Virus record (IMG/VR): IMGVR_UViG_3300007541_004389
Span: 1-20,611 of that record
Strand: one strand, 5' to 3'
Length of the DNA stretch: 20,611 nt
Source: a virus
The translations under genes were made by a program, and so were the position numbers. Below the pieces are notes generated by a model. That model did not search any database, was not told the DNA's origin, and saw only the letters and a list, made by a program, of their open reading frames with translations. Of this stretch, positions 1,586-16,715 are shown piece after piece; the stretch's first letter is position 1, and each line of letters begins with the position of its first letter.

Positions 1586-1619
1586 ACAGAAATAAACCAT
1601 AACTTTCATCATAGGCGCC

Positions 1620-3119
1620 ATGAAAAAGTTTAAATCTCACATTTCTGAACAAAGAGTAAGGTTCTCGAAGCTTGATCTCGACTTCATGTCGTTTATGGGC
1701 GAGGATCTTGGTATCGGTCGTCCATCAGGAAACGAAGAAAAATTCGTCTTAGACGTTCTCTCTAAGATCGATGACCAGATCAGTTCTATTAAGACCGAGA
1801 TCGAAATTGATAACAGACCAGGAAAGTCGAACAGCAAAAAGCTAGCTATCTCTCAAGTGATGGCTGATAAAGATCGTACAAAGTTTGCTGCTTTAGCTAA
1901 TGAGATTATCGATAAAGAAGCCGATCTCGAAAGAGGTCCTGTTCCTGCTCCTCGTAAAGAAAAAGATTATTCTTTTAAACATAAAGACATGAGCCGTTAC
2001 GTCTACGTTAACTGTCGTCCTGATGGTAAGCGATCTGCAGCTGGTGATGATCCTAATGAGCTTATGGCTGCAGCACTTTGTTTAAAATCTTCACTTAAAA
2101 TTCCTACAAATTCAGACGAAATGGACGCTCTTATTAACGACGTTCGATTAGGTCTCACTAAAGTAAAAGGTTATAAGAAAGGACAAGTCGAAAGCTTATC
2201 CGGCGATTATCCTAACTTATGTCAAGCAGTATCAGCAGCTAAAGCTGTTCATGATGCTGGATACGGTGATGCTGATATGGTCTATCTTACAGGACAATCT
2301 TGGGACGATGATGTTAAACAATTCCAAATCACTAAGTATGGAATGGCTGACTTCAACTCATCAGACTTCATCGTAAGAAAAGGTAATAGGTTTCTAGGTG
2401 TTTCACTTAAGAAAAAGAAAAGACTGAACGAAGAAGATCCTACACTAATTAACAAGTCGTTTTCGACGATGTTCAAAGATAGAAAGTTCGACGACATCAT
2501 GAAACAGCTTGATCACAAGACTGGTTTCTTCTATCTTAAAGTGTTAGCTCGTGCTAAGCGTGAGGGCAAAGCAAGTCCTCAATTGCTAAAAGACATGGAA
2601 AAAACTCGTCCTAATACCGATAACTGGAAACAGTTTATTCAGCGAATCGACAACGCAGTTATCAATAGAGAACTTAAGTCTAGCCAATCTTTGTTTAAAG
2701 ACATGGCCAACATCATTCTTAAGAACAAGACTCTTATCGCTGATCAGCTCATGCAACTTATTTTCAAAGCAGATCTCAAAGACCTACAGAAAGTTAATTT
2801 TGACTTCGCACTCGTTACTGGTATCGGTGATTATGGTCCTCAGAAAGGTGTAGTTATCGAACAAGGTGAGTATAAAGACATCAATACAGTAACTACTAAA
2901 CTCGATGATCTCGCTAATACAGGTAAAGTTGATTTAAGATTTACTCCCGGAACAGTTCAAGCATTTCAGCCTGGAGCCACTGCAGCAGTTCTTAAGTTTG
3001 ATCTTGTTTTAGGTGACGTTCCTCTTTGCAACATCTCTCTAAGATACAAAGGCAACTTTAGATCAGCACCTTCGTTCCTAGCTACTATGACACCAGAATT
3101 CAAGGCTATTTACAAATGA
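1620..3119 (+). CDS. Putative packaged internal head protein, possible PD-(D/E)XK-like nuclease fold
   Basis: A 499-residue protein that starts MKKFKSHISEQ, matching the T4 capsid-targeting pattern (short basic/aromatic helix, then I-x-E). I do not recognise the family with confidence. Residues about 230-265 read GQSWDDDVKQF...NSSDFIV.....FLGVSLKKK: an acidic residue at the start of one strand and S-x-K on the next. Some restriction-enzyme-like folds use this D...(E/Q/S)-x-K spacing, so a PD-(D/E)XK-type nuclease is conceivable but not established. The C-terminal third alternates strands and ends with a hydrophobic segment. It is the first gene after the late promoter and overlaps the downstream kinase gene by four bases (ATGA), so the two are probably made together. 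Alternative: a purely structural head protein. Confidence 0.6.
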   Translation: MKKFKSHISEQRVRFSKLDLDFMSFMGEDLGIGRPSGNEEKFVLDVLSKIDDQISSIKTEIEIDNRPGKSNSKKLAISQVMADKDRTKFAALANEIIDKEADLERGPVPAPRKEKDYSFKHKDMSRYVYVNCRPDGKRSAAGDDPNELMAAALCLKSSLKIPTNSDEMDALINDVRLGLTKVKGYKKGQVESLSGDYPNLCQAVSAAKAVHDAGYGDADMVYLTGQSWDDDVKQFQITKYGMADFNSSDFIVRKGNRFLGVSLKKKKRLNEEDPTLINKSFSTMFKDRKFDDIMKQLDHKTGFFYLKVLARAKREGKASPQLLKDMEKTRPNTDNWKQFIQRIDNAVINRELKSSQSLFKDMANIILKNKTLIADQLMQLIFKADLKDLQKVNFDFALVTGIGDYGPQKGVVIEQGEYKDINTVTTKLDDLANTGKVDLRFTPGTVQAFQPGATAAVLKFDLVLGDVPLCNISLRYKGNFRSAPSFLATMTPEFKAIYK

Positions 3120-4159
3120 TAAGATTTAAGAGATTTTTAGAAGAAGGCATCAATGATCCTGCTATCTTTAAAGCAGTGTTTCTTGCCGGTGGCCCAGGAT
3201 CTGGTAAGTCGTTTGTTGTAGGCCAAACTGCGTTAACAGCCTTAGGATTCAAGCTCATTAATTCAGACGACGCGTTTGAAGTCGCTTTAAGCAAAGCCGG
3301 TTTAGAACCAGATCCAGAAACTTTATTTTCACCTAAGGGCCAAGAACTTCGTAGCAAAGCAAAAGCGTTAACCGGTAATAAGATGAAACGAGCTATCGAA
3401 GGTCGACTCGGTTTAGTAATCGATGGTACTGGAAAAGATTACGATAAAATCAAAAAACAGGTTGACATGTTGCGTGAAATAGGTTATAGTGTTATGATGT
3501 TATTCGTTAACACAGACATTGAAACCGCTCTGAATCGTAATAGTAAAAGAGATCGTTCTTTGCCTGATGACACAGTTAAGAAAATGTGGAATTCAGTACA
3601 AACAAACATTGGAAAGTTTCAAAACTTGTTTAGAGATCGTATGATTGTAGTAGATAATTCAGACGGTGCAAATTCTCAAAAAATCTTAAACTCAGTCTAT
3701 AAGCGTGTAGCTACTTGGTCTAAGACTTCGTCTGATAATCATATTGCTAAAAAATGGATTTCTCAACAAAAGAAAGAACGTGGTATTAAAGAAGATAAGC
3801 AATCCGTAAAACATCACCTTGGTATAGGTGTAAGTTTCAAACACCAGTCAAAAGATGCTCTTAAGCATTTTGACAGAGATAACGACGGTGATGTAGATGC
3901 AGATGATTTTAGTGGTAAGATTCCCGATGAAATTACTGGAACTGAGCCTAAAGATTTAACAAAGAGAATGCTGAAGAAATATGATCGTGAAAGAGCACAC
4001 ACTCGAAAAGGTGTTGCTTTTGAAGACGCAGAACTTAATGCTAGACAAGCTGATGAAGTACAAAGATTAAGAGACAGACAAAAGAGAGAGAAAGAGTCAT
4101 TGAAGCGTAGACACGATCAACAAGACGCACAAGCTAAAAGAGAGCGAGAAAGACAATAA
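3116..4159 (+). CDS. P-loop kinase (zeta-toxin/polynucleotide-kinase-like) with EF-hand-like loop and capsid-targeting-like N-terminus
   Basis: A 347-residue protein. It opens MIRFKRFLEEG, the same targeting-like peptide as its neighbours, followed at once by a P-loop kinase: VFLAGGPGSGKS at residues 21-32, INSDD near 51-55, and VIDGTGKDYDKI as the second core strand. A later NTDIETALNRN..RDRSLPDD segment resembles the LID region of zeta toxins and phage polynucleotide kinases. The kinase ends near residue 200. A calcium-loop-like D-R-D-N-D-G-D-V-D-A-D-D lies at 253-264. The last ~50 residues are an extremely charged Arg/Lys/Glu/Gln helix, probably a coiled coil. The substrate is unknown: RNA or DNA 5' ends, or a small molecule such as a UDP-sugar. 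Overlaps with both neighbours place it between the possible nuclease and the ligase-like gene. Confidence 0.75.
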   Translation: MIRFKRFLEEGINDPAIFKAVFLAGGPGSGKSFVVGQTALTALGFKLINSDDAFEVALSKAGLEPDPETLFSPKGQELRSKAKALTGNKMKRAIEGRLGLVIDGTGKDYDKIKKQVDMLREIGYSVMMLFVNTDIETALNRNSKRDRSLPDDTVKKMWNSVQTNIGKFQNLFRDRMIVVDNSDGANSQKILNSVYKRVATWSKTSSDNHIAKKWISQQKKERGIKEDKQSVKHHLGIGVSFKHQSKDALKHFDRDNDGDVDADDFSGKIPDEITGTEPKDLTKRMLKKYDRERAHTRKGVAFEDAELNARQADEVQRLRDRQKREKESLKRRHDQQDAQAKRERERQ

Positions 4160-5397
4160 TGAAAGGCTTTAAAGCATACATTACAGAAGCAGCAGGTAAG
4201 AACCTTCACATGACGCATTTAGAAGATGCTGTTATCGATGGAGGTGTTACTGGTACAAGGAATGTTTTTAATTATCTAAGAGCTCTCCGTGACATGCTAG
4301 CAGGCAACGCTTCTGCTCCTGTGAGCATCACAGTCAAGTGGGACGGTGCACCAGCTTTATTCGCTGGGGTTGATCCTTCTGATGGTAAGTTCTTTATTGC
4401 TAAGAAAGGAGTCTTTAATAAGAATCCAAAAATTTATAAAACAAATGCAGAAATTGATAATGATCTGAGTGGCGATCTAGCAGCTAAATTTAAAGTTGCT
4501 CTTAAGGAATTCGCCAAACTCGGGATCAGTGAAGGAGTGATACAAGGTGATTTCTTATTTACGAAAGACGATCTCAAAACAGAAACTATTGATGGAGAAT
4601 CGTATATTACTTTCCATCCTAACACGATTGTTTACGCGGTACCAACGAACAGCGACCTCGGTAAAACAATTGCAGGATCCGAAATCGGTGTGGTTTGGCA
4701 CACAACGTACCGAGGATCAGATTTTGAATCAATGTCAGCAAGTTTTGGAAAGAAGATTGTCCCAAGCCTCAACAAAACAAAAACAGTCTGGGCAGTAGAC
4801 GCAGTATTCGAAGACAAATCTGGTAACGCAACGTTTACTAAGAATGAAACTGACGAAATTACAAAACTTCTATCTGACGCAGGACGAATCTTTAGAACAG
4901 TAAGTCCTAAAGTGCTAAATGAATTAGGCACAAACACTGAGCTCAATGCTCGAGTGAATACATACATCAATTCAAAAGTGCGTGAAGGATCACGAATCGG
5001 CGATCCTCGCGGATTCATTATAGGTCTACAACAATACATTAAAGAATACTATCAGAAAGAAGCTGATAAAGTAAAACAACAAAAAAGTAAAGATATTAAG
5101 ATCGCTAAAGGCGAAGAACTATTAAAGTTTTTTGCTAGAACAAATATGAAACACATTTTAAATATCTTTACACTCTACAATATTCTAGTCGATTGCAAGT
5201 TGATGGTTATTGAGAAGCTTAATCATGTTGACGGACTCAAGACTTTCTTGAAAACAAATAAAGGATTCGAAGTAACTGGCCAAGAAGGTTTTGTTGCTAT
5301 TGACCATCTTGGAAAGAATTCGTTGAAACTCGTCGATCGCTTGCAGTTTAGTAAAGCAAACTTTAGTACAGAATACATTAAAGGGTGGCAGAAATAA
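4159..5397 (+). CDS. KWDG nucleotidyltransferase/ligase-like protein with capsid-targeting-like N-terminus
   Basis: A 412-residue protein that begins MKGFKAYITEA, the clearest targeting-like peptide in the window. Residues 58-63 read TVKWDGAP, the K-x-D-G motif I of covalent nucleotidyltransferases (DNA ligases, RNA ligases, capping enzymes), with K60 as the predicted AMP-accepting lysine. Later candidates follow in order: FFIAKKG near 78-84, EGVIQGDFLF at 125-134 (motif III/IIIa-like), EIGVVWHTTYRG at 175-186 (motif IV-like), and basic residues beyond 200. The C-terminal half is helical, and I see no recognisable OB domain. Relatives are known in marine T4-like phages, sometimes annotated as RNA ligase or as a DUF. 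The reaction is inferred from motif I. The start overlaps the kinase stop (TAATG), continuing the coupled trio. Confidence 0.72.
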   Translation: MKGFKAYITEAAGKNLHMTHLEDAVIDGGVTGTRNVFNYLRALRDMLAGNASAPVSITVKWDGAPALFAGVDPSDGKFFIAKKGVFNKNPKIYKTNAEIDNDLSGDLAAKFKVALKEFAKLGISEGVIQGDFLFTKDDLKTETIDGESYITFHPNTIVYAVPTNSDLGKTIAGSEIGVVWHTTYRGSDFESMSASFGKKIVPSLNKTKTVWAVDAVFEDKSGNATFTKNETDEITKLLSDAGRIFRTVSPKVLNELGTNTELNARVNTYINSKVREGSRIGDPRGFIIGLQQYIKEYYQKEADKVKQQKSKDIKIAKGEELLKFFARTNMKHILNIFTLYNILVDCKLMVIEKLNHVDGLKTFLKTNKGFEVTGQEGFVAIDHLGKNSLKLVDRLQFSKANFSTEYIKGWQK

Positions 5398-5630
5398 TGG
5401 CTTGGGTAGCAGTACCAGGATCAGATAGCATCTGGGAATACGACAACGCAGCAAACACGTCTTTAGCTGACGTGTACGCCGATGCTAACGGAACAGTAAC
5501 AGCTGGAGTTAGAGCGTTTACTCCTCCAGGTGGCAACACACAATACACTTATATACGATGCAGAAAAGCGGGTGAAACGATTGTCCGTGGTGAGTTAAAC
5601 AAAAACTATTACGATAATCTAATACCATAG
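5397..5630 (+). CDS. Small putative virion protein
   Basis: A 77-residue protein that starts MAWVAVPGSDSIWEYDN. I chose the ATG at 5397 over the in-frame GTG at 5385 because it overlaps the upstream TAA (TAATG), as other gene junctions here do, and because the protein then starts with a hydrophobic strand. The sequence is rich in Trp, Tyr, Thr and Gly, suggesting a small beta-rich fold, with the end LNKNYYDNLIP. It has no signal peptide, membrane segment or catalytic motif. Its position between packaged-type proteins and a larger beta-rich protein suggests a minor virion component. I do not recognise a named family. Confidence 0.7.
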   Translation: MAWVAVPGSDSIWEYDNAANTSLADVYADANGTVTAGVRAFTPPGGNTQYTYIRCRKAGETIVRGELNKNYYDNLIP

Positions 5631-5641
5631 GAATTAATTAA

Positions 5642-6475
5642 ATGGCAATTTGGAATAAGAACGATCAAGCATATTTAGATAATAATAAAACTTTATTTGA
5701 AGCATTTATGCTATCTGATAAAGATGGCAATATTATTAACTCATTTGGAATTGCTTCAAATATTCCTATTGCTGCAGGCGAATTAGACGGTTGGGCCGCA
5801 ATCCATAAATTTGGTGCGGTTCCTCTCATGTCAACAAACCCAGGCGTTGGTTCAGTTTGGGATAAGAGTGATACCTTTTATCCTTGGACTGCTTTTAATA
5901 CACCAGGGCCACTTACTATTTCAACGACAACATCTAACGGAACTTTATCTTCCTTAGATACTGGAATGACTGTAACGATTGTTGGGCTTGATGAAAATTT
6001 CGAAGCTACTCAAGAAACAATTACAATTACAGGTGATGCAGGTGCTGGTACTCAGAATTTTTCCCGCGTATATCGAGCATTCACTTCTCAAGATAATCAA
6101 ACTGAGGTGCGCGTATCTACAACAACGGGTACACCAACCGAAGTTCTTAGAATTAATATTCTAAAAGGCCAAACACTAATGGCTGTTTATACAGTTCCTG
6201 CTGGTAAAACAGCATACCTAACAAAAGGCACAGCTACTTGTGCTGCTAACGCTGACACAACAATTGATATGTTTGTTCGTTATGGCGGAGTAGGTGCATT
6301 TAGAATTGGTCATACTGCTGAGGTTGCTGGTGTTGGTGGACAATATACATATGAATTTGCTGTTCCAATTCAAATGCCTGAAAAGACAGACATTGATATT
6401 AGAGCAACAGTTCGTTCAAATAACGCAAGAGTAACAGCAGCATTTGATCTAATTTTGATTGACAATCCCGCTTAG
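5642..6475 (+). CDS. Putative beta-rich virion structural protein
   Basis: A 277-residue protein beginning MAIWNKNDQAYL, preceded by AGGA at a good distance. After a short N-terminal region it is mostly Thr/Ser/Gly/Val with alternating strands (TISTTTSNGTLSSLDTG..VTIVG, ETITITGDAGAGTQ), and the C-terminal half (GKTAYLTKGTATCAAN..IDMFVRYGG) reads like a jelly-roll or Ig-like domain. This fits a head-decoration, neck or fibre-associated protein in T4-like marine phages. It ends just before the sigma70 promoter that opens the accessory cassette, so it is the last gene of the late unit. The exact role cannot be assigned from sequence. Confidence 0.7.
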   Translation: MAIWNKNDQAYLDNNKTLFEAFMLSDKDGNIINSFGIASNIPIAAGELDGWAAIHKFGAVPLMSTNPGVGSVWDKSDTFYPWTAFNTPGPLTISTTTSNGTLSSLDTGMTVTIVGLDENFEATQETITITGDAGAGTQNFSRVYRAFTSQDNQTEVRVSTTTGTPTEVLRINILKGQTLMAVYTVPAGKTAYLTKGTATCAANADTTIDMFVRYGGVGAFRIGHTAEVAGVGGQYTYEFAVPIQMPEKTDIDIRATVRSNNARVTAAFDLILIDNPA

Positions 6476-6478
6476 TGG

Positions 6479-6507
6479 TTGACATTTACACCTAACTGAT
6501 ATATAAT
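6479..6507 (+). promoter_or_regulatory. Consensus sigma70 (host RNA polymerase) promoter
   Basis: TTGACA at 6479-6484 and TATAAT at 6502-6507 are separated by exactly 17 bp, a perfect match to the bacterial housekeeping promoter. It lies in the 40-bp gap between the structural gene ending at 6475 and the ATG at 6516. Transcription should start at about 6513-6515, almost on the ATG, so the first transcript would be leaderless or nearly so. It contrasts with the TATAAATA late promoters on both sides and implies early expression of the following cassette. Confidence 0.85.
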
Positions 6508-6515
6508 TATATGCT

Positions 6516-7151
6516 ATGGTTAAAGATGATTTTGAGACATACATTCGAGGAAAGCGAGTAGCTGTTGTAGGTAACGCGCTTTCTTTGTTTGATACTCAAT
6601 GTGGTAGTGAGATTGATGATCATGAAGTTGTAATTCGTATCAACACCCCCGCAATATTCTTCCAAGATCTCACACCTAGACACTCCCACGGAACTCGTAT
6701 TCATGTATGGGCTTTCTGGGATTATTTTCGTTATGCTACAAGTGACCATAGAGATAAACCAAGCAAACTTCTAGATACTTTCTGGAATACAGATAGATAT
6801 AACGTACTAGATTTAAACATGCTTAACAAAAAAGAAGCAGGTTTCAAATGGAACAAAAACGATTTCTTTTTTGAAATAAAACAAAACATGCTAAAAGAAA
6901 CTGGTAATCCTTCTGCGGGTTTATCCATTCTTTATTTACTTAATGAATGTGATCCTGCAGTAGTAAATGTTTATGGTTTTGATTTTAAACGCACACCTAC
7001 TTTTAGTAATTTTAATCAGGATGTTGATAGTAATAGATTTGATTCTTTCTACCGACACGACTACGCATTTGAAGAACAATATGCAAAACAAAAGTTCTTT
7101 ACACAAGAACGATTTAATTTAAAAGGAGAATATTATGGGACGTATTCGTGA
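6516..7151 (+). CDS. GT29 sialyltransferase-like glycosyltransferase
   Basis: A 211-residue protein with the ordered motifs of the GT29 (eukaryotic-type sialyltransferase) fold. The L motif is KRVAVVGNALSLF...IDDHEVVIRIN at residues 13-43, where VVGN and the [ED]ID-x-H-[DE]-V-V-I-R-[IM]-N core match the CMP-sialic-acid-binding segment. The S motif is GNPSAGLSILYLLNECDP..VNVYGFDF at 130-157. The VS motif H-x4-E is H181-E186 (HDYAFE). Family members transfer a sugar from a CMP-linked donor; the phage acceptor and donor are unknown. It is shorter than animal enzymes because it lacks the membrane stem. It starts the cassette, right after a sigma70 promoter, and its end overlaps the methyltransferase gene by 17 bases. 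Activity is inferred; the family match is strong by eye. Confidence 0.8.
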   Translation: MVKDDFETYIRGKRVAVVGNALSLFDTQCGSEIDDHEVVIRINTPAIFFQDLTPRHSHGTRIHVWAFWDYFRYATSDHRDKPSKLLDTFWNTDRYNVLDLNMLNKKEAGFKWNKNDFFFEIKQNMLKETGNPSAGLSILYLLNECDPAVVNVYGFDFKRTPTFSNFNQDVDSNRFDSFYRHDYAFEEQYAKQKFFTQERFNLKGEYYGTYS

Positions 7152-7701
7152 TAGAGGTCATGATGGCGGTAACATTTGGAGATGGCATACTATTGAAAAG
7201 TATGTTCGAAAAAACGGCTGGACAAAGGGCGCTGAACTAGGAGTGTGGTTAGGTGAAACATTTAAACATTTGGTCAAGACTTGTCATAATCTTCATCTTA
7301 TTGGTGTGGATCTTTATGCTCCCCAACCAGAAAACAACGGACCAGAAAAATGGACTTCTGGTGAAAATGGTCATGCATGGAATCACGAAGCATACTATCA
7401 AGACTTGGTAAGATTCTGTCAAGCATATCCAGGTCGAGCAGAAATCATTAAAGACTATACAACAGAAGCTGCAAAAGAAGTAGCTGATGAGAGTCTAGAT
7501 TTCGTATTCATTGATGCTGATCATGGATACGAAGGTTGTCTTCGCGATATTCAAGCATGGACTCCTAAAGTCCGTAAAGGTGGTATGATCATTGGCCACG
7601 ATATTCATTTCCCAACAGTTGAGCGAGCAGTCACCGAATACTTCGGTCCTAACTCGTGGAAAGTAGAAGACGATTTCTTGTGGTTAGTCGAGAAAACATA
7701 A
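7135..7701 (+). CDS. Class I SAM-dependent methyltransferase (Methyltransf_24-like)
   Basis: A 188-residue protein. Motif I is AELGVWLGET at residues 33-42 (SAM-binding glycine loop), LHLIGVDLY at 53-61 supplies the acidic residue for the ribose, and LDFVFIDADHGYEG at 121-134 is typical of the Methyltransf_24/O-methyltransferase group, followed by WTPKVRKGGMIIGHD. In sugar and antibiotic gene clusters this group often methylates hydroxyl groups of sugars. The ATG at 7135 is preceded by AAAAGGAGAAT, one of the best ribosome sites in the window, inside the end of the glycosyltransferase gene. Its stop overlaps the next small gene (TAATG). The substrate is unknown; O-methylation of a sugar fits the neighbours. 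Confidence 0.8.
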   Translation: MGRIRDRGHDGGNIWRWHTIEKYVRKNGWTKGAELGVWLGETFKHLVKTCHNLHLIGVDLYAPQPENNGPEKWTSGENGHAWNHEAYYQDLVRFCQAYPGRAEIIKDYTTEAAKEVADESLDFVFIDADHGYEGCLRDIQAWTPKVRKGGMIIGHDIHFPTVERAVTEYFGPNSWKVEDDFLWLVEKT

Positions 7702-7823
7702 TGAAGCGTTGCCAGTATTGTGGTAAAAGGTTCAGAGTCGTTCTTCTAAGCTCTGGTGTATTATGGTGTAGTTATGAGTGCAGTGAAAAGGATCTCAAAG
7801 GTGAAAAGAACGCGTGTAATTAA
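7701..7823 (+). CDS. 40-residue zinc-ribbon/knuckle-like protein
   Basis: A short open frame starts with the ATG overlapping the methyltransferase stop (TAATG) and encodes 40 residues. It carries C-x2-C at residues 4-7 (CQYC) and C-x3-C at 23-27 (CSYEC), a spacing suited to binding one zinc, with basic residues between. The TAATG coupling, the paired cysteines and the absence of any other gene covering 7702-7755 support it as real. Its end overlaps the start of the kinase gene. The role is unknown; it could be a small nucleic-acid- or protein-binding adaptor. Confidence 0.6.
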   Translation: MKRCQYCGKRFRVVLLSSGVLWCSYECSEKDLKGEKNACN

Positions 7824-8340
7824 TTTTTATGGTGGGCCCTGCTCAGGTAAAAGTACAGCTGCTGCAGGTTTATTTTACAAGATGAAGCTACTTAACTATA
7901 GTGTTGAGTTAACAGACGAGTTCGCTAAAGAATGTGTTTGGGAAGGAAATGTTCCTATGCTCAAAGACCAACTCTGGATCTTAGCTCATCAACATCGAAA
8001 GATTCTCAGACTAGTTGGTAAAGTAGATTATATTATCACTGATTCTCCAGTTCTACTTAGTCCCATCTATCGAGAAGTTTATGAAGGTCCTCTGTATAGC
8101 AATCTAATTGACAAGTTAGCTTTAGAATGTTATAATATGTACGACAATATTAACTTTATGTTAAGTCGCCCTCGTGATTTCGATCCTAATGGGCGAGCAC
8201 AAAACGAAGTCGAGAGTGTTCGCATTGATCTTGAGATCGTCGATCAATTCAAACGCTTAGACATACCCTATATACAAATTGAAGGATCTGATCACGCTTC
8301 TCTCGCTTACGACAAATTGGTGACTTTTTATGCACATTGA
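7801..8340 (+). CDS. P-loop nucleotide kinase-like ATPase (AAA_28-like)
   Basis: I favour the GTG at 7801, which has AAAAGGA eight to nine bases upstream and gives 179 residues with the P-loop close to the N-terminus. An ATG at 7774 (188 aa) and a GTG at 7756 are also in frame but lack a visible ribosome site. The core reads VINFYGGPCSGKST (residues 6-19), VDYIITDSPVL as the Walker B-like strand, and RDFDPNGRAQNEVESVRIDLEI as a LID-type region. This resembles AAA_28/NadR-kinase-like phage ATPases that phosphorylate small nucleotides or nucleosides. The substrate is unknown. Its end overlaps the hydroxymethyltransferase start by 11 bases. Confidence 0.75.
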   Translation: MKRTRVINFYGGPCSGKSTAAAGLFYKMKLLNYSVELTDEFAKECVWEGNVPMLKDQLWILAHQHRKILRLVGKVDYIITDSPVLLSPIYREVYEGPLYSNLIDKLALECYNMYDNINFMLSRPRDFDPNGRAQNEVESVRIDLEIVDQFKRLDIPYIQIEGSDHASLAYDKLVTFYAH

Positions 8341-9472: not shown

Positions 9473-10131
9473 AAACAAGTATCGAAAAGAAACTCAGCCA
9501 CATTTGGATCGGGCCAAAGCCAGCTCCACTAAAGTGGATGTACACTTGGCGCGATAAACATCCCGATTGGGAGTATAGTATTTTTACCGATACTATGCTT
9601 AGGACTCGTCGATGGAAGAACCAACACTTGATCGAAGAGTATTATAATAGACGCTTATGGCCTGGTGTTTCTGACCTTATTCGATACGAACTTCTTTATG
9701 AAAATGGTGGATTCATTGCTGAAGCAGATATGATCTGTTTAGAGAATACTGATGAACTATTCCAAAGTCCTGAAGATCACGCTTATACTTGCTTTGAGAA
9801 CGAAAAAGGAAGACCTAATTTTGTTCAACCTATTTTTGCTTGCAATCCTGAAAACAAATTCATAGCTATGGTAATAGATGAACTTCATAAACTCAGACGA
9901 GGCGATCTTCATCCACAACCTTTCATGTCAACGGGTAATGCTTTTCTAGCTAAGCACGTGCCTCAATGGCGAGACAAACTTACTATATGGCCGTCACACT
10001 ATTTCATTCCTCAGTTCTATGTAGCTGGAGCGAAGAGATACGATGGGCCAGATAAAGTGTATGCAGATCATAAGTGGGGTTCTACCGGAATGCACGCTCA
10101 CTGCTTACAATATTCAGACGGGGTTCTATAA
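9469..10131 (+). CDS. GT32-like glycosyltransferase (DXD-sugar family)
   Basis: A 220-residue protein. The N-terminus KKLSHIWIGPKPAPLKW (residues 7-23) is the typical first strand of the Gly_transf_sug/GT32 group. It is followed by W-x-x-x-x-P-D-W-E-Y and then SDLIRYELLYENGGFIAEADM at 68-88, where the group normally carries a D-x-D for metal and sugar-nucleotide binding. Here the motif is E-A-D (85-87), a conservative change that should still bind a metal but deserves checking. Related proteins transfer mannose, glucose or galactose to lipids or polysaccharides. Its ATG overlaps the upstream TGA (ATGA), and its stop overlaps the sulfotransferase start, so translation of this cassette section is probably coupled. 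Confidence 0.8.
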   Translation: MKTSIEKKLSHIWIGPKPAPLKWMYTWRDKHPDWEYSIFTDTMLRTRRWKNQHLIEEYYNRRLWPGVSDLIRYELLYENGGFIAEADMICLENTDELFQSPEDHAYTCFENEKGRPNFVQPIFACNPENKFIAMVIDELHKLRRGDLHPQPFMSTGNAFLAKHVPQWRDKLTIWPSHYFIPQFYVAGAKRYDGPDKVYADHKWGSTGMHAHCLQYSDGVL

Positions 10132-10790
10132 TGTACTTATCACACAAATATAAATTTCTATTCTTACGTACGCCAAAGACTGCAAGCAGCAGTCTTTCGG
10201 ATTTTTTTATTCGCAACATCAATGATCCTGAAGCGATCTATACTGAAGTTGAAGATTCAAACTTACCAGGAACACTTGACGAGAGTATCGTATCTCGTTA
10301 TCGTCCCTATGCTTTCTATCATTTTACTCTCGATCAATTAATTCATGAAGGAGTAATTACAGAAGAGCAAGCTCGTGAATACGATGTTTTTGCGCTACTG
10401 AGAGATCCTATTGATAGAGCAAAAAGTTTTTACTACTTCTATAAGAAATTTAGATCACCAGGAACTTCTCCTTCTCTTGAAGAATATAAGAGATGGACTA
10501 ACAAGGGAGTGTTTAATAACGATCCTAACTCCGCAATAGTGCAAACAGACCTATTAAAAATCAAAGGTGAATCGGTAGGTCGATACTGGTTATATGAGAA
10601 TCTTGAAAAAGAATTATCTAATTTTATGTTCCACAGAAGATTGAGAATCGATCATCCTCTACCTCGGCATAAAACAGATACACGAAAAGTTAAAAAGAAC
10701 GAGATTGAATTTGATGAAACTTCTTTAAACGATTTACGAGAGCACTTTCAAAACGATTTCATACTGTACGAGCAACTTAAGAAAAAGTAA
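10131..10790 (+). CDS. PAPS-dependent sulfotransferase-like protein
   Basis: A 219-residue protein starting at the ATG that overlaps the previous stop (TAATG). An in-frame upstream start at 10074 would lie inside the glycosyltransferase and is less likely. The opening FLFLRTPKTASSSL (residues 10-22) is the 5'-phosphosulfate loop of Sulfotransfer_2-type enzymes, and FALLRDPIDRAKSFYYFY at 87-104 is the 3'-phosphate-binding region with R91 and S99. His64 (YAFYHF) is a candidate catalytic residue. Family members add sulfate from PAPS to sugars, peptides or lipids. With three glycosyltransferases and a methyltransferase in the same unit, a carbohydrate acceptor is the simplest inference. A terminator-like hairpin lies inside its first 70 bases. 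Confidence 0.82.
   Translation: MYLSHKYKFLFLRTPKTASSSLSDFFIRNINDPEAIYTEVEDSNLPGTLDESIVSRYRPYAFYHFTLDQLIHEGVITEEQAREYDVFALLRDPIDRAKSFYYFYKKFRSPGTSPSLEEYKRWTNKGVFNNDPNSAIVQTDLLKIKGESVGRYWLYENLEKELSNFMFHRRLRIDHPLPRHKTDTRKVKKNEIEFDETSLNDLREHFQNDFILYEQLKKK
10175..10208 (+). other. Terminator-like hairpin inside the sulfotransferase gene
   Basis: A perfect 9-bp stem, AAAGACTGC (10175-10183) paired with GCAGTCTTT (10189-10197), closes a 5-base loop (AAGCA). CGGA and then seven T residues (10202-10208) follow. This resembles an intrinsic terminator except for the 4-base spacer before the T-run. The same bases encode the PAPS-binding loop, so coding constraint could explain it. Function is unproven. 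Confidence 0.4.
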
Positions 10791-10912
10791 TGAAAAGATT
10801 CTTTGCTAAGCTATGGGATAAATTCACATTACTACTTACTTACGCTTTATTGTTCGTGAGTGTGTTTATGTTCTTGTACGCACTGATTCTTTTCTACGCA
10901 AATACAAATTAA
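10790..10912 (+). CDS. 40-residue single-pass membrane protein
   Basis: The frame opens with an ATG overlapping the sulfotransferase stop (TAATG) and encodes 40 residues. A short basic, aromatic N-terminus (MKRFFAKLWDKF) is followed by about 24 hydrophobic residues (LLLTYALLFVSVFMFLYALI and beyond) and a polar end (YANTN). This is a single transmembrane helix, with the N-terminus predicted in the cytoplasm by the positive-inside rule. It fills the whole space between two confident genes, which supports it as real. It could anchor the cassette enzymes at the inner membrane; a holin-like role is less likely from one helix and this location. Confidence 0.6.
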   Translation: MKRFFAKLWDKFTLLLTYALLFVSVFMFLYALILFYANTN

Positions 10913-10913
10913 A

Positions 10914-11603
10914 ATGAGCACAAAGGCATATATTCTTAAAATTAACACGCCGGTTTCTCAAGAATATGCTAAGATATGCGCAGATTCTTGTGATAGTGTC
11001 GGTCTAAAGTGGGAATACTTTCAAGGCTATCAGAATATGACTGGCCGAGCAGGTTGGTGTTTAACTGGAATTAGAATGCACTTCCATGAACCTGTCCGTT
11101 ATCTACCAGATCCTAATCCTTCACAAAAAGCAAATGCGTGTAGCGCTGGTCACGGTGCTATTTGGAAACTTATCGCTGATGGTCCTGATGATGTAGGTGT
11201 GGTACTAGAGCACGATGCTATCATGCTCCAACCACTTACTATAAATATTCCAGATAACGTTATAGTTGTTTTGGGATACAAAGTATCAAACCCAAAGCGA
11301 TATGATCATGTTAGTGCCGGAGAGCCACGGGAATTAATAGATATAGATGGACACGAAGGTGCTCATGCTTATGCTATGACTAGGAATACAGCTAAGTTTT
11401 TAGTCAGTGAAATAGAACAAAGAGGTATTTTAGGAGCTGTTGATAACGCATACTTTATTAGAGGACAGCGAAGAACAGCAATACCACTTAAGATAGCTAG
11501 CCCTACTCCAGCTCTTGGCTGGATTAGAGAAAGCACAATATGGGGCTCTAGCGCCCATAGAAACTACGAATTCATTTCCTCGTTTAAAGAAAATTATAAA
11601 TAA
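10914..11603 (+). CDS. GT25-like glycosyltransferase
   Basis: A 229-residue protein. Features of the GT25 (LPS glycosyltransferase) group occur in order: an N-terminal strand AYILKIN, then ACSAGHGAIWKLI (75-87, equivalent to the family's GCxxSHxxIW), GVVLEHDAIML (95-105, with E-H-D at the usual E-D-D position), and GAHAYAMTRNTAKFLV (about 148-163), followed by AVDNAYF, the region that carries a conserved aspartate. Family members mostly transfer galactose or glucose to lipooligosaccharide or hydroxylysine. It is the last gene of the sigma70-driven cassette, and its final codons and stop lie within the next late promoter. The acceptor is unknown. Confidence 0.75.
   Translation: MSTKAYILKINTPVSQEYAKICADSCDSVGLKWEYFQGYQNMTGRAGWCLTGIRMHFHEPVRYLPDPNPSQKANACSAGHGAIWKLIADGPDDVGVVLEHDAIMLQPLTINIPDNVIVVLGYKVSNPKRYDHVSAGEPRELIDIDGHEGAHAYAMTRNTAKFLVSEIEQRGILGAVDNAYFIRGQRRTAIPLKIASPTPALGWIRESTIWGSSAHRNYEFISSFKENYK
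11595..11602 (+). promoter_or_regulatory. T4-type late promoter TATAAATA
   Basis: An exact TATAAATA overlaps the last codons of the GT25-like gene; its final TA is the start of that gene's TAA stop (11601-11603). It lies 39 bases before the ATG at 11642. The surrounding 14 bp are identical to those at 1575-1588. It should drive the head-protein genes from 11642 onward. Confidence 0.8.
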
Positions 11604-11641
11604 CAAAGAGTAGATTCAAATTTAACTAGGACTTATCAATA

Positions 11642-13729
11642 ATGAGCCAAATATTTCAAGAATTCTTGAATTCCGTTAAATCGTGTGATATTTCGTTGCC
11701 TGTATCTTTCGTAGAGGCACCAGACGACGATGACGCAGCGCTTGAAATCGATCCAAGTGATGACGATAATCCGGAAGTCGAAAAACCAAAACCAAAGAAA
11801 AAAGTCACTAAAAAGAAGAAGTGGAAACCAAGTTTCAATCCAGACAAATATGTTGATGTGAAACCTGAATTAAGAGAAGCGCCAAAGAGTGACACTGCAG
11901 TCATTACATTTGGGCGAATGAATCCAATCACAACTGGCCATAATGTACTTGTTAACGCAGTGGTTGCAACCGCTCTTAAGTCCGGCGGAATACCACTCGT
12001 TTACTTATCTCAAAGTACTGATCCTAAAAAGAATCCTCTAACTTATGACCAAAAAATCAGATTCGCAAAGCGCGCGTTTGGTGCTAAGTTAATTGTTAAA
12101 AGCAAGTCTAGAACTATTCTCGAAGTTGCAACAGAGCTTCAGAATAGATTTAAGAAACTCATTGTAGTCGTAGGCTCAGATAGAGTCTCTGAATTTGATA
12201 ATCTACTCAACAAATATAATGGTAATCTCTACAATTATGATGAGATCAAAGTAGTATCTGCAGGTGAGCGCGATCCTGATTCAGACGATGTTTCAGGTAT
12301 GTCAGCTTCTAAAGCAAGAGGATTTGCAAAAGATGGTGACATGGAGTCTTTCAAGAAAAGCTTACCTCCTAAACTTCAATCTCAAGCGGCTTCTGTTTAT
12401 AACGCAGTTAGAGCTGGCATGGGAATTAAAGAAGCAGTCGAACAACTCGAACTAGAAGAAGCTCTAACACGTCAACAAAGACTCAAGCGCAAGATGATTA
12501 TGCGCAGAATTAAGTCTAAGATTCAAATGGGTCGTCGTAGAGCTATGAGACGTAGAGCGACCACAGCTGTGGTTCAAAAACGCGCTAAGAAAATGGTTCT
12601 TCGTATGCTCAAGCAAAGATTTGCTAAGAGTAATCGATATGCAGATCTTCCATATAGTGCAAGACAGCGTATCGACGATCGTATTGCGCGTATTCCTAAA
12701 GCTCGTCTCAAGATTCTAATGAGACGCTACATTCCGAAAATTAAGAAAATGGAGAGAGATAGATTTGCAGCTAAGGTTGCAAAAGCAACAGCTCCAGCAG
12801 CTTATAAGCCAAAACCAGTCTCTATTGTTAAAGCTAGAGTTCCTGAGAGTGTAAGCATAAACTTCAACAGCATCTTCGAAAAGTTTATTTCAGAAAGAGT
12901 TGAAAAACCAGAATCACTTCCAAACACAAAAAGTAATCTCGAATTAGCAGTTGAAATGGCAAACACCCTCGGCGCTAATATGAATTACGCTATTAAAGAA
13001 ATTGATAAGATTAAGAAAGGATTGTCTCGACATCCTGAAGTAAAGAATGCGCTAAGATTAACTAATGCACGCTTTAACGAAGAAGTATATCAGCAATACA
13101 CCTTTGAGAAAAGACTCGAAGAAGGTGCATCATATCACGCAGGACTTTCAAAGTCAACCGCAGCTAAGCGCAAAGCACAATTCAATAAACAAGCAAAGAT
13201 GGACGATGATAATCCTGCAGCCTATAAGCCAGCTCCTGGTGATGCTACTGCAGAGACAAAGCCTAGCAAACATACTTCAAAGTTTAAAAAGATATTCGGC
13301 GAAACTAATTACGAGAAAGCTCACCTCAAGAAGCCACACATGCTTTTAGATAAGAAAGGTGCAGTCGTAATTGATAAGCGTTTTCGTATGTTTAAGAAAG
13401 CAAAAGAAGTCGATATGGTATTAGCTCAATACAATAAAGAAGAAAAGATTCAAGAGATTAATGATCTAATAGAATCTGTTGAGTTTGTTTTCGAGAGCAA
13501 TCCTAAAAAATCATTAAGAGACAAAGCCGAAAAGACAGGGATTTCTTATTCCATTCTTAAAAAAGTTTTTGATCGTGGTGTCGCAGCATGGCGCACAGGT
13601 CATAGACCAGGTACAACTCCTACACAATGGGGATTAGCTAGAGTTAATTCATTTGCAACTGGTGGAAAAACACAAAAAACAACAGACAAAGATCTTTGGG
13701 ATCAACACAGAGGAAGTAAAAGTGATTAA
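11642..13729 (+). CDS. Nucleotidyltransferase (HxGH-type) fused to a basic domain and a DUF5824-like C-terminus; putative head protein
   Basis: A 695-residue multidomain protein. Residues 28-45 are Asp-rich and 49-62 Lys-rich linkers. Residues 85-230 form a cytidylyltransferase-like domain: TAVITFGRMNPITTGH (85-100) carries the T/H-x-G-H motif and GMSASKARG (219-227) the I-S-x-T-x-x-R-type motif of NMN/pantetheine adenylyltransferases. At 266-274 VEQLELEEA looks like a prohead-protease site. Residues 275-375 are extremely Arg/Lys/Met-rich (e.g. KMIMRRIKSKIQMGRRRAMR), suited to binding DNA. Residues 431-481 carry a module shared with the gene at 17820. The last ~75 residues (GISYSILKK...AAWRTGHRPGTTPTQWGLARV) match a DUF5824-type phage domain. 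The N-terminus MSQIFQEFLNS only weakly resembles the targeting peptide. The nucleotide product is unknown. Confidence 0.8.
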   Translation: MSQIFQEFLNSVKSCDISLPVSFVEAPDDDDAALEIDPSDDDNPEVEKPKPKKKVTKKKKWKPSFNPDKYVDVKPELREAPKSDTAVITFGRMNPITTGHNVLVNAVVATALKSGGIPLVYLSQSTDPKKNPLTYDQKIRFAKRAFGAKLIVKSKSRTILEVATELQNRFKKLIVVVGSDRVSEFDNLLNKYNGNLYNYDEIKVVSAGERDPDSDDVSGMSASKARGFAKDGDMESFKKSLPPKLQSQAASVYNAVRAGMGIKEAVEQLELEEALTRQQRLKRKMIMRRIKSKIQMGRRRAMRRRATTAVVQKRAKKMVLRMLKQRFAKSNRYADLPYSARQRIDDRIARIPKARLKILMRRYIPKIKKMERDRFAAKVAKATAPAAYKPKPVSIVKARVPESVSINFNSIFEKFISERVEKPESLPNTKSNLELAVEMANTLGANMNYAIKEIDKIKKGLSRHPEVKNALRLTNARFNEEVYQQYTFEKRLEEGASYHAGLSKSTAAKRKAQFNKQAKMDDDNPAAYKPAPGDATAETKPSKHTSKFKKIFGETNYEKAHLKKPHMLLDKKGAVVIDKRFRMFKKAKEVDMVLAQYNKEEKIQEINDLIESVEFVFESNPKKSLRDKAEKTGISYSILKKVFDRGVAAWRTGHRPGTTPTQWGLARVNSFATGGKTQKTTDKDLWDQHRGSKSD

Positions 13730-14834
13730 GTTCAAGGACCTAAAAGAAGCAGGTGGAGCAGGAGACTGGGGAACTGACAAAGCTCGTAAGAAGCTTCAAC
13801 AAGACACTCCAGGCCAAGGCATTACTGATATGGGCGTAAAAAATAAACAGCGTAAAGAATCAGTTGAACTTAGCGAAAAGCTAAAAGTGTCTGATGGTCT
13901 AGGTGCTTGGATCGACGATTTCATGAAGTCAGATGCTCCTCAGTTTAAAAATGCAGATGATAAGAAGCGCCGTGACATGGCGATCGCAGCATTTACTTCA
14001 GCCGGTGGTAAACTCGATGAGTCAGTTATATCCATTGAAGAAGGAGCTGTTGCTCTTTCCACAGTTGAAAAAGAAATCAGATCAAACGGTGGAAAGATTG
14101 TTAAGAAAGACGACAGATCAATTACATTTACTTTAAACGGTGCTCAAAGAAAAGTTCCAGTAGATAGAGGACATGTACTAGATACTTATTACATGCAACT
14201 TCAGAAAATGTTCGAAGAAGTAGAATACGTTAGTGAAGATGGACAATGGGGCGTTAAGAACGTATATTTGAAATACACACCAGATGTTCTCAAATTAAAG
14301 AAGATCAAAATTCAAGATACAATTAGCAACCTTAAGAGACAACACAGCAGCTTAACTGCACTAGGTGGTAAGAATCCACGAGCTGAAGAGATCAAAGAGT
14401 TAGAAGGAAAACTTCGCATGATCGATCAAGCAATGAGAACTAAGAAAGAATCGCTTGATCTTGATGAAGCAGACACCTACGCAATCTACAAGAAAGGTAA
14501 AGTATTCGATACTTTCAGATCCAAAGAAGATGCGCATGACTCTCTAGATAGTATGGGTCTTTCTGCGATCAGCAAAAAAGATTATAGCGTAAGAAAACTT
14601 CCTGCTAATTATAAAAGCAACTGGTCGATGAAAGAAGAAGTCGAGCTTGATGAAGGAACTCTAGCTGCGAGTGACGGGAGTGTTGTTGATGCGCTACTCA
14701 CCGCAGTAAAAGATAAATTGATGAAAGATTTAAGTAGTGGAAATGTTGATGATGCTAACGAAATTGCAAAGATGGTCAAAATGACTATAGAAAAAGATTA
14801 TAAACGCAAAGGATTTTCGAGGCTAAAAAGATGA
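13722..14834 (+). CDS. Putative packaged head protein with several prohead-protease-like sites
   Basis: I place the start at the GTG at 13722, which follows AGAGGAAG by about eight bases and gives MIKFKDLKEAG, the same targeting-like peptide as other genes here; a longer frame from 13653 would run inside the upstream gene. The 370-residue product is charged and helical. It contains DGLGAWIDDFMKSDAPQF...RRDMAIAAF, a module I associate with structural proteins of T4-like marine phages. Candidate cleavage motifs are ESVELSEK, VISIEEG, SLDLDEA and EEVELDEG, spaced so that cutting would release several fragments. No enzyme motif is visible. It overlaps the upstream gene by eight bases and the downstream gene by four. 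Confidence 0.72.
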   Translation: MIKFKDLKEAGGAGDWGTDKARKKLQQDTPGQGITDMGVKNKQRKESVELSEKLKVSDGLGAWIDDFMKSDAPQFKNADDKKRRDMAIAAFTSAGGKLDESVISIEEGAVALSTVEKEIRSNGGKIVKKDDRSITFTLNGAQRKVPVDRGHVLDTYYMQLQKMFEEVEYVSEDGQWGVKNVYLKYTPDVLKLKKIKIQDTISNLKRQHSSLTALGGKNPRAEEIKELEGKLRMIDQAMRTKKESLDLDEADTYAIYKKGKVFDTFRSKEDAHDSLDSMGLSAISKKDYSVRKLPANYKSNWSMKEEVELDEGTLAASDGSVVDALLTAVKDKLMKDLSSGNVDDANEIAKMVKMTIEKDYKRKGFSRLKR

Positions 14835-15442
14835 AAAAATTTATAAACTTTATAGAAGAAAAGGGTGAAGCTGTTGACGCAACAGACATGCCAAAACTCC
14901 AACAATTAATTAGACTTGGTCTCGCTGATAGTAAAGACCTAGCGCTAATCAAGAGAACCATTATGAAAATGGATTCTGGCGAAGAGCTAACAATGAAAGA
15001 GAAGAAGATGGCAGAAAAGCTAGCCAAGATTCTTCTTGACAAAGTAATTGGAAACAAAGTAATTTACAACTTAGTTCGCCAAGGTCTTGGAAAAGAGAGT
15101 GTGCAAGAAGATCTCGATGAAAACGCAAGACGTGATGCTATGGCTGCTATCCGCAGAGATAAAGATTTTAGAGACAAAGATGATGAAGACGACGTAGCTA
15201 CAGATGCTGATCGAGCTGCTGCTAAGAAGAATCCTATCATGCAATTGAGAAAGATTTCTGATATCGAAGGTGGAGAGATGGAGTTCACCAATCGCAAGAA
15301 AATGAAAGTTTCTAAAGTAGATGCTGACAAGATTCTAAGAGCTTTTGGTACTATTCAAAAGTCTTTAGACAAGCAAAAGTTTCAAACTCTAATCGGACGT
15401 AGTCCAGAAGATTTCAAGAAAATACTTAAGATTCTAAGATAA
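14831..15442 (+). CDS. Putative packaged internal head protein (charged, helical)
   Basis: A 203-residue protein that opens MKKFINFIEEKG, a near-ideal match to the T4 capsid-targeting pattern, with I-E-E as the expected cleavage point. The rest is very charged and helical. It includes the Lys-rich stretch MKEKKMAEKLAKILLDK, EDLDENARRDAMAAIRRDKDFRDKDDEDD (split here by a possible L-D-E site), and a C-terminal helix FKKILKILR. No catalytic motif is visible. Composition resembles small basic/acidic core proteins packed with DNA. It overlaps the upstream stop (ATGA) and the downstream start (TAATG), so translation is probably coupled across the set. Confidence 0.7.
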   Translation: MKKFINFIEEKGEAVDATDMPKLQQLIRLGLADSKDLALIKRTIMKMDSGEELTMKEKKMAEKLAKILLDKVIGNKVIYNLVRQGLGKESVQEDLDENARRDAMAAIRRDKDFRDKDDEDDVATDADRAAAKKNPIMQLRKISDIEGGEMEFTNRKKMKVSKVDADKILRAFGTIQKSLDKQKFQTLIGRSPEDFKKILKILR

Positions 15443-15672
15443 TGAAAAGCTTTAAAGAGTTTATTTCAGAAGGTTCTGAAACTTGGGAAGCGGGTTTCAA
15501 GCGCAGAGTCGTAAAGACAACTAAACCTGAGCACAAAGAAAAAGGTTACAACTGGCGCATCAAAGGAAAAGATCGTCCAGAGATAAGCATTAAATTATAT
15601 AAAGACAAACCATCATTTGATGAATTTAAAAAACAAATGAAGCGTGTTGCAGGACACGAATTCGGAGGATAA
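15442..15672 (+). CDS. Small putative packaged internal head protein
   Basis: A 76-residue protein beginning MKSFKEFISEG, where cleavage after I-S-E would leave about 66 residues. The remainder is basic (FKRRVVKTTKPEHKEKGYNWR, KQMKRVAG) with a short predicted sheet. The size and charge fit the class of small internal proteins that T4 packages with its genome. The start overlaps the upstream stop. I do not recognise a named family. Confidence 0.68.
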   Translation: MKSFKEFISEGSETWEAGFKRRVVKTTKPEHKEKGYNWRIKGKDRPEISIKLYKDKPSFDEFKKQMKRVAGHEFGG

Positions 15673-15677
15673 GAAAA

Positions 15678-16301
15678 ATGTTAAGATTTAAGCGATTTGT
15701 TGAACAGACAGAACTAGTCGAGTCGCATTTCGAAGTAGGCGATAAAGTTAAGTGTGTTCATAGCGGCAAGGAAGGCGTCGTCACTAAAGTTGATCCTTCT
15801 GAAAAAGGTAAGTACTACACTGTTAAGCGCGATGATGGTGAAGTCATGCAGTACGCACCAGACGACCTCGAGGCTTTGAAAGAAGAAGTCGAACTTGATG
15901 AAGCAGGTTATAAAGTGCCGAAGAACTATGCTTCTATGATGGCGAAGAAACGTAGAAAGGCTGGCACTTCTGAGTTTGGCACGCACCCAGATAAGAAAAA
16001 AGAGGTAAAGAAAGAAGAAATCGAGCTTGAAGAAGGACGTAACGAAGCACTTAAAGCCCTCGAAGGACTCGCTAAGCGCGGAGGAATGGATAAAGCTGAT
16101 TTTCAAAAAGCTCATGATCTATATAAAGCCAACAAACTCACCGATCTCAGAAAACATATCTACGGACTAGATACAGATCCTAGTGAAGCTATCGCAGACG
16201 TTATTAACAGACATGATTCAAAAGCATTTAACAGCATGTATCCAAAAGCTAAAGCTGGTGATTACCTTCGTATGATTATATTAAATCACGGTGGAAAATA
16301 A
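15678..16301 (+). CDS. Putative packaged protein with KOW/SH3-like domain and two protease-like sites
   Basis: A 207-residue protein opening MLRFKRFVEQTE. Residues 19-70 (FEVGDKVKCVHSGKEGVVTKV...YYTVKRDDGEVMQYAPDDLEAL) read as a small SH3-like barrel of the KOW type, with the G-D-x-V start and the central G-x-V turn; such barrels often bind nucleic acid or protein. KEEVELDEAG then marks the domain end, and a short basic linker (MMAKKRRKAGTSEFGTH) follows before KKEEIELEEG. The last ~90 residues are helical (ALEGLAKRGGMDKADFQKAHDLYK). Cleavage at both motifs would produce a barrel domain, a basic peptide and a helical domain. It lies five bases after the previous stop. Confidence 0.7.
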   Translation: MLRFKRFVEQTELVESHFEVGDKVKCVHSGKEGVVTKVDPSEKGKYYTVKRDDGEVMQYAPDDLEALKEEVELDEAGYKVPKNYASMMAKKRRKAGTSEFGTHPDKKKEVKKEEIELEEGRNEALKALEGLAKRGGMDKADFQKAHDLYKANKLTDLRKHIYGLDTDPSEAIADVINRHDSKAFNSMYPKAKAGDYLRMIILNHGGK

Positions 16302-16303
16302 AA

Positions 16304-16705
16304 TTGAAAGGCTTTAAGAACTTTTACAACGAAGAAAGGTTCGGCATTTACGAGGGGGTTACAGTCCCTCTCGAACAGCCTATGATCGAGTTCGATAGTT
16401 CTATGGGACTCTTGGCTGCAGAAAAAGAACCAGAACTAAATTCACCAAAGCGAAGCTCTGGTGATAAGAAATACGTTGTTTATGTTCGTAATCCAAAAAC
16501 AAGAAACATCAAGAAGATCGAGTTCGGAGATGAAAAAGGTGGACTCACTTCAAAGATTAACGATAGAGACGCTGCAAAGAGTTTTGCTGCAAGACACCAA
16601 TGTGATACTAAGAACGATAAGATGACTCCAGGATACTGGGCGTGTCGTTTACCTAAGTATGCTAAGTCTTTAGGATTGCAGGGCGGTGGCGATTATTTTT
16701 GGTAA
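16304..16705 (+). CDS. Putative packaged head protein with conserved Cys-containing phage domain
   Basis: A 133-residue protein with a TTG start at 16304; the N-terminus then reads MKGFKNFYNEE, again the targeting-like peptide, and the upstream GGTGGA can serve as ribosome site. The 13 bases TGAAAGGCTTTAA at the start also occur at the start of the ligase-like gene at 4159. After a variable linker, residues about 55-125 (KKYVVYVRNPKTRNIKKIEFGD...FAARHQCDT..DKMTPGYWACRLP) match a small domain I recall from T4-like marine phages, with C-D-T and W-A-C cysteines that may pair or bind metal. The function of that domain is unknown to me. Confidence 0.68.
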   Translation: MKGFKNFYNEERFGIYEGVTVPLEQPMIEFDSSMGLLAAEKEPELNSPKRSSGDKKYVVYVRNPKTRNIKKIEFGDEKGGLTSKINDRDAAKSFAARHQCDTKNDKMTPGYWACRLPKYAKSLGLQGGGDYFW

Positions 16706-16715
16706 GGAGTAAAAA

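Follow-up and report, generated by a model that had tools for sequence, protein, structure and literature searches.

The DNA stretch analysed here, termed the window, is the 20,611-base virus record IMGVR_UViG_3300007541_004389, a fragment whose proteins are akin to those of marine T4-like phages; the phage it comes from is a marine virus of bacteria. Eight of its genes start with a common leader of ten residues, and it is probable (roughly 0.85) that this shared N-terminus is a T4-type capsid-targeting sequence, loading cargo into the phage heads alongside the DNA. The tag is known from T4, and its use on enzymes in marine T4-like phages is new within the literature searched: a search covering few subscription journals returned no account of this signal in cyanophages and no mention of DUF6267, the family of one of the eight proteins, while the T4 review PMC9026906 has the word "cyanophage" in its reference list only. 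The leader offers an explanation for part of the unexplained enzymes in T4-like cyanophage particles, where the choice lies between cargo and contamination. As a sequence-readable tag of ten residues, it allows new cargo to be predicted in marine T4-like phages and a dark class of genes, the injected effectors that act before expression, to be searched for.

Eight genes with a common N-terminus

The eight genes are listed below together with gene X, a neighbour that enters the comparison with virion proteins. Bit scores refer to the profile described in the next section.

Leader gene A: 1620 to 3119, plus strand; 499 amino acids (aa), MKKFKSHISE followed by Q; 19.9 bits
Leader gene B: 3116 to 4159, plus strand; 347 aa, MIRFKRFLEE followed by G; 19.7 bits
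Leader gene C, DUF6267: 4159 to 5397, plus strand; 412 aa, MKGFKAYITE followed by A; DUF6267 match at E 2.6e-107
Gene X, cytidylyltransferase/nicotinamide mononucleotide adenylyltransferase (NMNAT)-like: 11642 to 13729, plus strand; 695 aa, MSQIFQEFLNS, a degenerate leader at most, lacking Glu at position 10
Leader gene D: 13722 to 14834, plus strand; GTG start, MIKFKDLKEA, weak in the window
Leader gene E: 14831 to 15442, plus strand; 203 aa, MKKFINFIEE followed by K; 16.4 bits
Leader gene F: 15442 to 15672, plus strand; 76 aa, MKSFKEFISE followed by G; 19.0 bits
Leader gene G: 15678 to 16301, plus strand; 207 aa, MLRFKRFVEQ; 9.5 bits
Leader gene H: 16304 to 16705, plus strand; TTG start, 133 aa, MKGFKNFYNE followed by E; 14.8 bits; phrog_7595

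The first-pass annotation of this DNA had reported the eight peptides at these starts, and each was found there (six ATG starts, GTG at 13722 and TTG at 16304). The consensus it had written down proved too strict, since a near-equivalent pattern, M..[FY]..[FYLW][ILVM].E, fits four of the eight (3116, 4159, 14831 and 15442); the misfits are H at position 7 in 1620, Y at 8 in 16304, E at 9 with Q at 10 in 15678, and L7, K8, E9 and A10 in 13722. Its statement that the eight bodies are unrelated was borne out by blastp, in which no pair fell under E 0.01 and the closest, 15442 against 1620, reached 0.013. Gene duplication as the origin of the common start in the eight is ruled out, as the bodies do not match. 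A common segment (E 3e-6) was found in 11642 and 17820, neither of which is among the eight. For gene E, two related viral contigs were found, at 100% and 67%.

The start chosen for 13722 is backed by its orthologs in two related loci, L002 (ATG, MIKFKELLEK) and L003 (GTG, MIKFKELVKEA, where residue 10 is E), which align with it from the first residue. In a further locus, L004, a 13722-type start (ATG) lies at 13257 joined to a 15678-like body, followed by another 13722 segment; starts and bodies have therefore been exchanged between leader genes, as a plug-in signal predicts.

Conservation and specificity of the leader

The leader profile was built from DUF6267 orthologs alone, picked by body homology, to limit circularity. 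Its input comprised 50 distinct N-termini of 14 residues (47 distinct 10-mers, counting that of the window) from 79 loci; L039, which is without a start, was left out. The cut-off of at least 7 bits corresponds to 0.00044 per internal position, on a background of 458,920 internal positions, and the denominators of the scans are our own gene calls unless annotated coding sequences (CDS) are stated. The related loci were taken from IMG/VR, where 252 were found by query and 80 kept, with identity up to 100%; one of the six peptide patterns used to fetch them was derived from the leader, which is a small bias.

For the internal protein IPIII of T4, PMC9026906 reports that incorporation needs the first ten residues alone, with 4 and 7 as the main determinants of targeting and 8 and 10 controlling processing. 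In the 50 DUF6267 N-termini, the positions of lowest entropy are, in order, 10, 4, 8 and 7, which are exactly the T4 determinants (chance 1 in 126 for four of nine positions). Glu is found at position 10 in 44 of the 50, Phe at 4 in 42, Leu or Ile at 8 in 48, and Tyr, Phe or His at 7 in 49.

When the window was scanned with this profile, 7 of the 29 called genes scored at least 7 bits against 0.03 expected by chance (6 of 28 without DUF6267). Seven of the eight leaders score 9.5 to 20.4 bits, among them 4159, which is in the training set; 13722 is absent from the profile matches of 6 bits or more. A T4-like regular expression gave a similar picture, with 4 of the 29 called genes matched against 0.04 expected.

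The leader also recurs on bodies that were selected without it. Orthologs of 1620, 3116 and 16304 were fetched by queries lacking the leader, and it was present in 11/27, 17/34 and 9/36 of their distinct N-termini, respectively, while seven control genes of the window gave 0/90 (the sum of seven counts). Left out of these counts were 1 locus of family A, 11 of B, 1 of H and 10 of c128.

Whole genomes were scanned in the same way, including the two longest related records, G001 (169.7 kb) and G002 (143.9 kb). Genes of at least 7 bits number 3/173 in G001, 5/169 in G002, 6/206 in Melnitz, 5/193 in C48C1, 2/187 in HTVC008M (both weak), 1/221 in DLP6, 5/202 in S-CREM2, 2/202 in S-SZBM1, 2/266 in S-SCSM1, 6/300 in S-CRM01, 0/186 in S-CBWM1 and 4/261 in T4; some of the matches in related genomes are simply orthologs of DUF6267. 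The T4 matches are gene 61.1 (18.3 bits), ipII and ipIII (9.8 bits each) and an open reading frame at 72271-72486, the last being spurious as a leader gene, since it overlies annotated tRNA genes. Both ipII and ipIII are annotated internal virion proteins, and ipI is weaker at 6.5 bits. The best leader match of the T4 genome, gene 61.1 (L117 18966-19130, minus strand), encodes a hypothetical protein of 54 aa starting MKTFKEFIKEDM, and gp61.1 may, judging by this start, be an unrecognised T4 internal protein.

The leader genes thus resemble those of T4 IPI, IPII and IPIII in carrying a ten-residue N-terminal leader on unrelated bodies, and they resemble IPII and IPIII in having an aromatic residue at 4 and 7, an aliphatic one at 8 and Glu at 10. 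Position 4 is mostly F here, as in IPI, whereas it is Y in IPII and IPIII. A further difference from T4 is that some of the putative cargo proteins are longer and belong to nucleic-acid enzyme families. A looser parallel is offered by the giant phages SPN3US and phiKZ, in which N-terminal propeptides removed by the prohead protease are thought to target head proteins (PMC5694885); those of SPN3US differ in sequence and are mostly far longer, several exceeding 100 residues, with one of 20 named.

Leader genes in published virion proteomes

In related phages, leader status can be compared with detection of the protein in purified virions. Annotated CDS were used for S-CREM2 and S-SZBM1 because the simple gene caller missed S-SZBM1 gp192; for S-SCSM1, three annotated stretches were used and the remainder came from our own gene calls. 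Table 3 of PMC10665884 gives 52 virion proteins of S-CREM2, and the enzymes among them are remarked on there as unexplained. Among the 219 annotated CDS of this phage, four of the five genes scoring at least 7 bits are virion proteins (p 0.012; p 0.0016 without the 24 structural proteins), namely gp154, a cytidylyltransferase, gp14, an APH/ChoK-like kinase, gp6, an S-adenosylmethionine (SAM) hydrolase, and gp13. At a cut-off of at least 6 bits, gp136 (6.1 bits) is added and the count becomes five of six (p 0.003; 2e-4 without structural proteins), the next score being 0.5. As a separate observation, the Cas9-like virion protein gp12 of S-CREM2 (L081 7704-10313, minus strand) has LRFASFMAE followed by A at residues 17-25, off the N-terminus.

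In S-SCSM1, the top score among the 266 called genes belongs to SSCSM1_91, an NMNAT labelled as a virion protein (PMC9602691), and one of the two leader genes of this phage is detected. In S-SZBM1, neither of the two genes of at least 7 bits was detected (PMC9146016); the cytidylyltransferase gp140 is in the virion list, with a leader register one residue shorter (MRFRQFIIE followed by A). When S-CREM2, S-SCSM1 and S-SZBM1 are pooled at the 7-bit cut-off, five of nine leader genes are in the virion against 1.8 expected (p 0.018). A looser pooled count of 8/12 is not relied on, since it was chosen post hoc and omits undetected loose matches such as S-SZBM1 gp64 and S-CREM2 gp16. The g130 kinase of S-CRM01 starts MISFDQFLSE, and a kinase is present in S-CRM01 virions according to PMC10665884.

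The virion NMNAT/cytidylyltransferase, APH/ChoK-like kinase and SAM hydrolase of S-CREM2, S-SCSM1, S-SZBM1 and S-CRM01 share the leader of the window genes; in the accessible parts of their reports, these enzymes are described as unexplained and a targeting signal is unmentioned. The homologs of window gene 11642 are S-SCSM1_91, S-CREM2 gp154, S-SZBM1 gp140 and S-CRM01 g127. The first three have both a leader and a place in the virion, in contrast to the imperfect leader of 11642 itself. Conversely, S-SZBM1 gp141, a DUF6267 protein without the leader, is also absent from the published virion list.

Prohead protease, candidate cleavage sites and promoters

T4 processes its leader-bearing proteins with the gp21 protease, and a protease of the same family occurs here in related genomes. 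Of 14 related virus records, 9 contain it, G001 and G002 among them, and none of the five that lack it exceeds 72.1 kb. Among eight named phages it was found in six, S-CBWM1 and S-TIM5 being those without it; S-TIM5 was included in this check alone, outside the leader scan.

Sites of the form [ILV]xE[AGS] are enriched in 11642, 13722 and 15678 (p 0.010, 0.010 and 0.040 among 28 genes), an enrichment that is non-significant after correction. In 13722 there are five such sites, one of them in the leader, and 15678 contains internal EEVELDE followed by A and EEIELEE followed by G. An octapeptide EE[VIL]EL[DE]E[AG] occurs four times in three window genes (13722-14834, 15678-16301 and 17820-18500), resembling spaced prohead protease sites; a pattern of this type occurs 0 times in G001, and a narrower form occurs 17 times in 80 related loci.

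Both clusters of leader genes have a late-promoter-like TATAAATA upstream, within two elements named for their likeness to the T4 late-promoter motif:

T4-late-promoter-like TATAAATAACAG: 1578 to 1589, plus strand; about 30 nt upstream of gene A
T4-late-promoter-like TATAAATAACAA: 11595 to 11606, plus strand; about 35 nt upstream of gene X

The placement of TATAAATA is suggestive of late expression of the leader clusters. ATAAATA itself occurs 4 times in the window against 6.5 expected and is not above chance.

A probable capsid-targeting tag and its alternatives

The first-pass annotation had interpreted the shared start as a capsid-targeting sequence of the T4 kind. A T4-type leader is strongly supported, because conservation falls on the expected positions, the profile is specific and recovers the T4 internal proteins, relatives have the gp21 family, and several leader-bearing homologs were detected in virions; packaging in this phage, cleavage after residue 10 and injection are inferred parts of that interpretation. 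By analogy with T4, the tagged proteins would be made late, their aromatic residues 4 and 7 would bind the prohead scaffold, and the bound proteins would be enclosed as the shell forms. The gp21-type protease of the phage would then cut after residue 10, mostly at [IL]-x-E, leaving the mature protein in the head with the DNA, and the cargo would most likely enter the host with the DNA, as the T4 internal proteins and Alt do. The tag would act as a plug-in signal, judging from the unrelated bodies that carry it, which in the window range from a P-loop kinase, the RNA-ligase-like DUF6267 and a nuclease-like protein to a number of small proteins; in relatives it is found on SAM hydrolase, APH/ChoK-like kinase and NMNAT/cytidylyltransferase. 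That such a tag lets T4-like phages carry various proteins has already been suggested in the T4 review (PMC9026906).

Several observations weigh against the capsid-targeting reading. S-CREM2 gp175 (9.0 bits) is absent from the virion list, as are S-SZBM1 gp192 (24.2 bits), gp191 (19.9) and gp64 (6.4) from the 30 proteins detected in that phage (PMC9146016), and S-SCSM1_30 (15.1 bits) carries no virion label. Most S-CREM2 virion hypotheticals are without the leader, and the non-structural virion proteins as a whole are unshifted in score relative to the undetected ones (Mann-Whitney p 0.22), so that the leader accounts for only part of the cargo. In S-CBWM1, a non-T4 phage with NMNAT and kinases in its virion (PMC10665884), the annotated NMNAT start is without the leader and none of the 186 called genes scores; enzymes can therefore enter virions by another route. 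The authors of PMC10665884 and PMC9602691 regard the enzymes as possible carry-over from CsCl purification. All four determinants occur together in strict form in 3/27 (family A), 11/34 (B) and 4/36 (H) distinct N-termini, and cleavage is doubtful for many members of these families because the four are so seldom combined. No match to the gp21 family was found in the window, a 20.6 kb fragment, and a search for a virion proteome of this phage found none.

Some of these observations would be expected if the leader served to dock assembly (core) factors on the scaffold that are destroyed or expelled at maturation and are not injected cargo. The leader genes near the terminase genes, S-SZBM1 gp191 and gp192 and S-SCSM1 gene 30, were not found in virions; the T4 core proteins gp22, gp67 and gp68 end up as short fragments according to PMC5694885, gp68 being marked as uncut in a table of PMC9026906; and three window proteins have extra [ILV]xE[AGS] sites. 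This role is nevertheless unlikely, since leader-bearing enzymes are present in the virions of S-CREM2, S-SCSM1 and S-SZBM1, and kinases and nucleotidyltransferases would be odd parts of a scaffold. The location of S-SZBM1 gp191 and gp192 is L087 22311-23125, and S-SCSM1 gene 30, undetected as well, is a leader-bearing look-alike of gp191.

That the shared start reflects how late genes are translated or expressed (through its Lys content or ribosome binding), or is left over from module exchange, with no role in targeting, is less probable still. The most frequent residue at positions 2, 3 and 5 is Lys, the late-promoter-like element precedes both clusters, and L004 combines a start of one gene with the body of another, all of which such an origin could accommodate; conservation, however, peaks at positions 4, 7, 8 and 10 and not at 2, 3 and 5, the control genes of the window lack the leader throughout, and leader status tracks virion detection in S-CREM2. 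Chance similarity combined with selection by the reader, to which the exact fit of only four of the eight to the written consensus might point, is refuted by the excess of window matches (7/29 against 0.03 expected) to a single-family profile and by the 0/90 controls.

Bodies of the candidate cargo

Within the capsid-targeting reading, the bodies of genes A to C bear on what the cargo may do. Gene B encodes a P-loop kinase of the AAA_33/Zeta_toxin superfamily (Pfam), with GGPGSGK invariant in 29 sequences; by profile, zeta in the PDB is matched at 5e-5.

In DUF6267 (gene C), K60, D62 and G63 of a KxDG motif are invariant in 37 aligned sequences, which also have conserved QGDFLF-, EGFVA- and KLVDR-like stretches. 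KxDG is the pattern of ligase motif I, and the other three stretches may correspond to motifs III, IV and V. The structural model has a mean predicted local distance difference test score (pLDDT) of 78.5, with residues 1-17, the leader and little more, below 50. Among the VIA matches listed (50 of 267), all are titled RNA or DNA ligases or their complexes, and the best listed reaches Z 8.3 over 187 residues, a level (near 8) that can be background. Foldseek gave no match for the model at E <= 0.001, and a search of the profile against PDB sequences gave no ligase and nothing under E 0.3. On the basis of the model and the motif, DUF6267 is proposed to be an RNA-ligase-like nucleotidyltransferase with an invariant KxDG, which suggests an enzyme identity for a family matched in 461 phage records, duplicates included.

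For gene A, 49 of the 50 VIA matches listed are nucleotidyltransferase folds, among them terminal uridylyltransferases (TUTases), poly(A) polymerases, cGAS, Pol mu and SpoT, and they cover about 90-100 residues of the N-terminal part. The remainder has one listed match, the endonuclease HinP1I (Z 8.6, 208 residues). Neither Foldseek with the model (no match at E <= 0.001) nor the profile against PDB sequences (nothing significant) gave support, and gene A is described, at the level of the predicted fold only, as a nucleotidyltransferase-like N-terminal part with a HinP1I-like nuclease fold.

Together, the P-loop kinase and the RNA-ligase-like DUF6267 hint at nucleic-acid end processing. A tentative extension, which we regard as possible though doubtful, is that the head carries a nucleic-acid repair kit of kinase, RNA-ligase-like, nuclease-like and nucleotidyltransferase proteins under one tag, injected with the DNA. 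Such cargo would act before phage gene expression, e.g., by mending RNAs or phage ends after cleavage by host defences; the tag of the window nucleotidyltransferase (11642) is imperfect. In T4, Pnkp and RNA ligase 1 do such mending later in infection.

Relatives and gene neighbourhood

A near-DNA search of 50,697 phage records gave no match to the window. At the protein level, the 461 records matched by DUF6267 (4159-5397), in which duplicate entries are counted, are mainly Synechococcus and Prochlorococcus phages, and the nearest matches, at 47-50% identity, are Phage C48C1, the Methylophilales Melnitz phages and Stenotrophomonas phage DLP6.

Between the two leader clusters of the window lie about 6 kb of intervening genes (5642-11603), among which a serine hydroxymethyltransferase-like protein (8330-9472) and glycosyltransferase-like proteins were recognised by eye. 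In Melnitz, a DnaB-like helicase is directly followed by leader genes (12203-16866), with DUF6267 and the cytidylyltransferase homolog among them.

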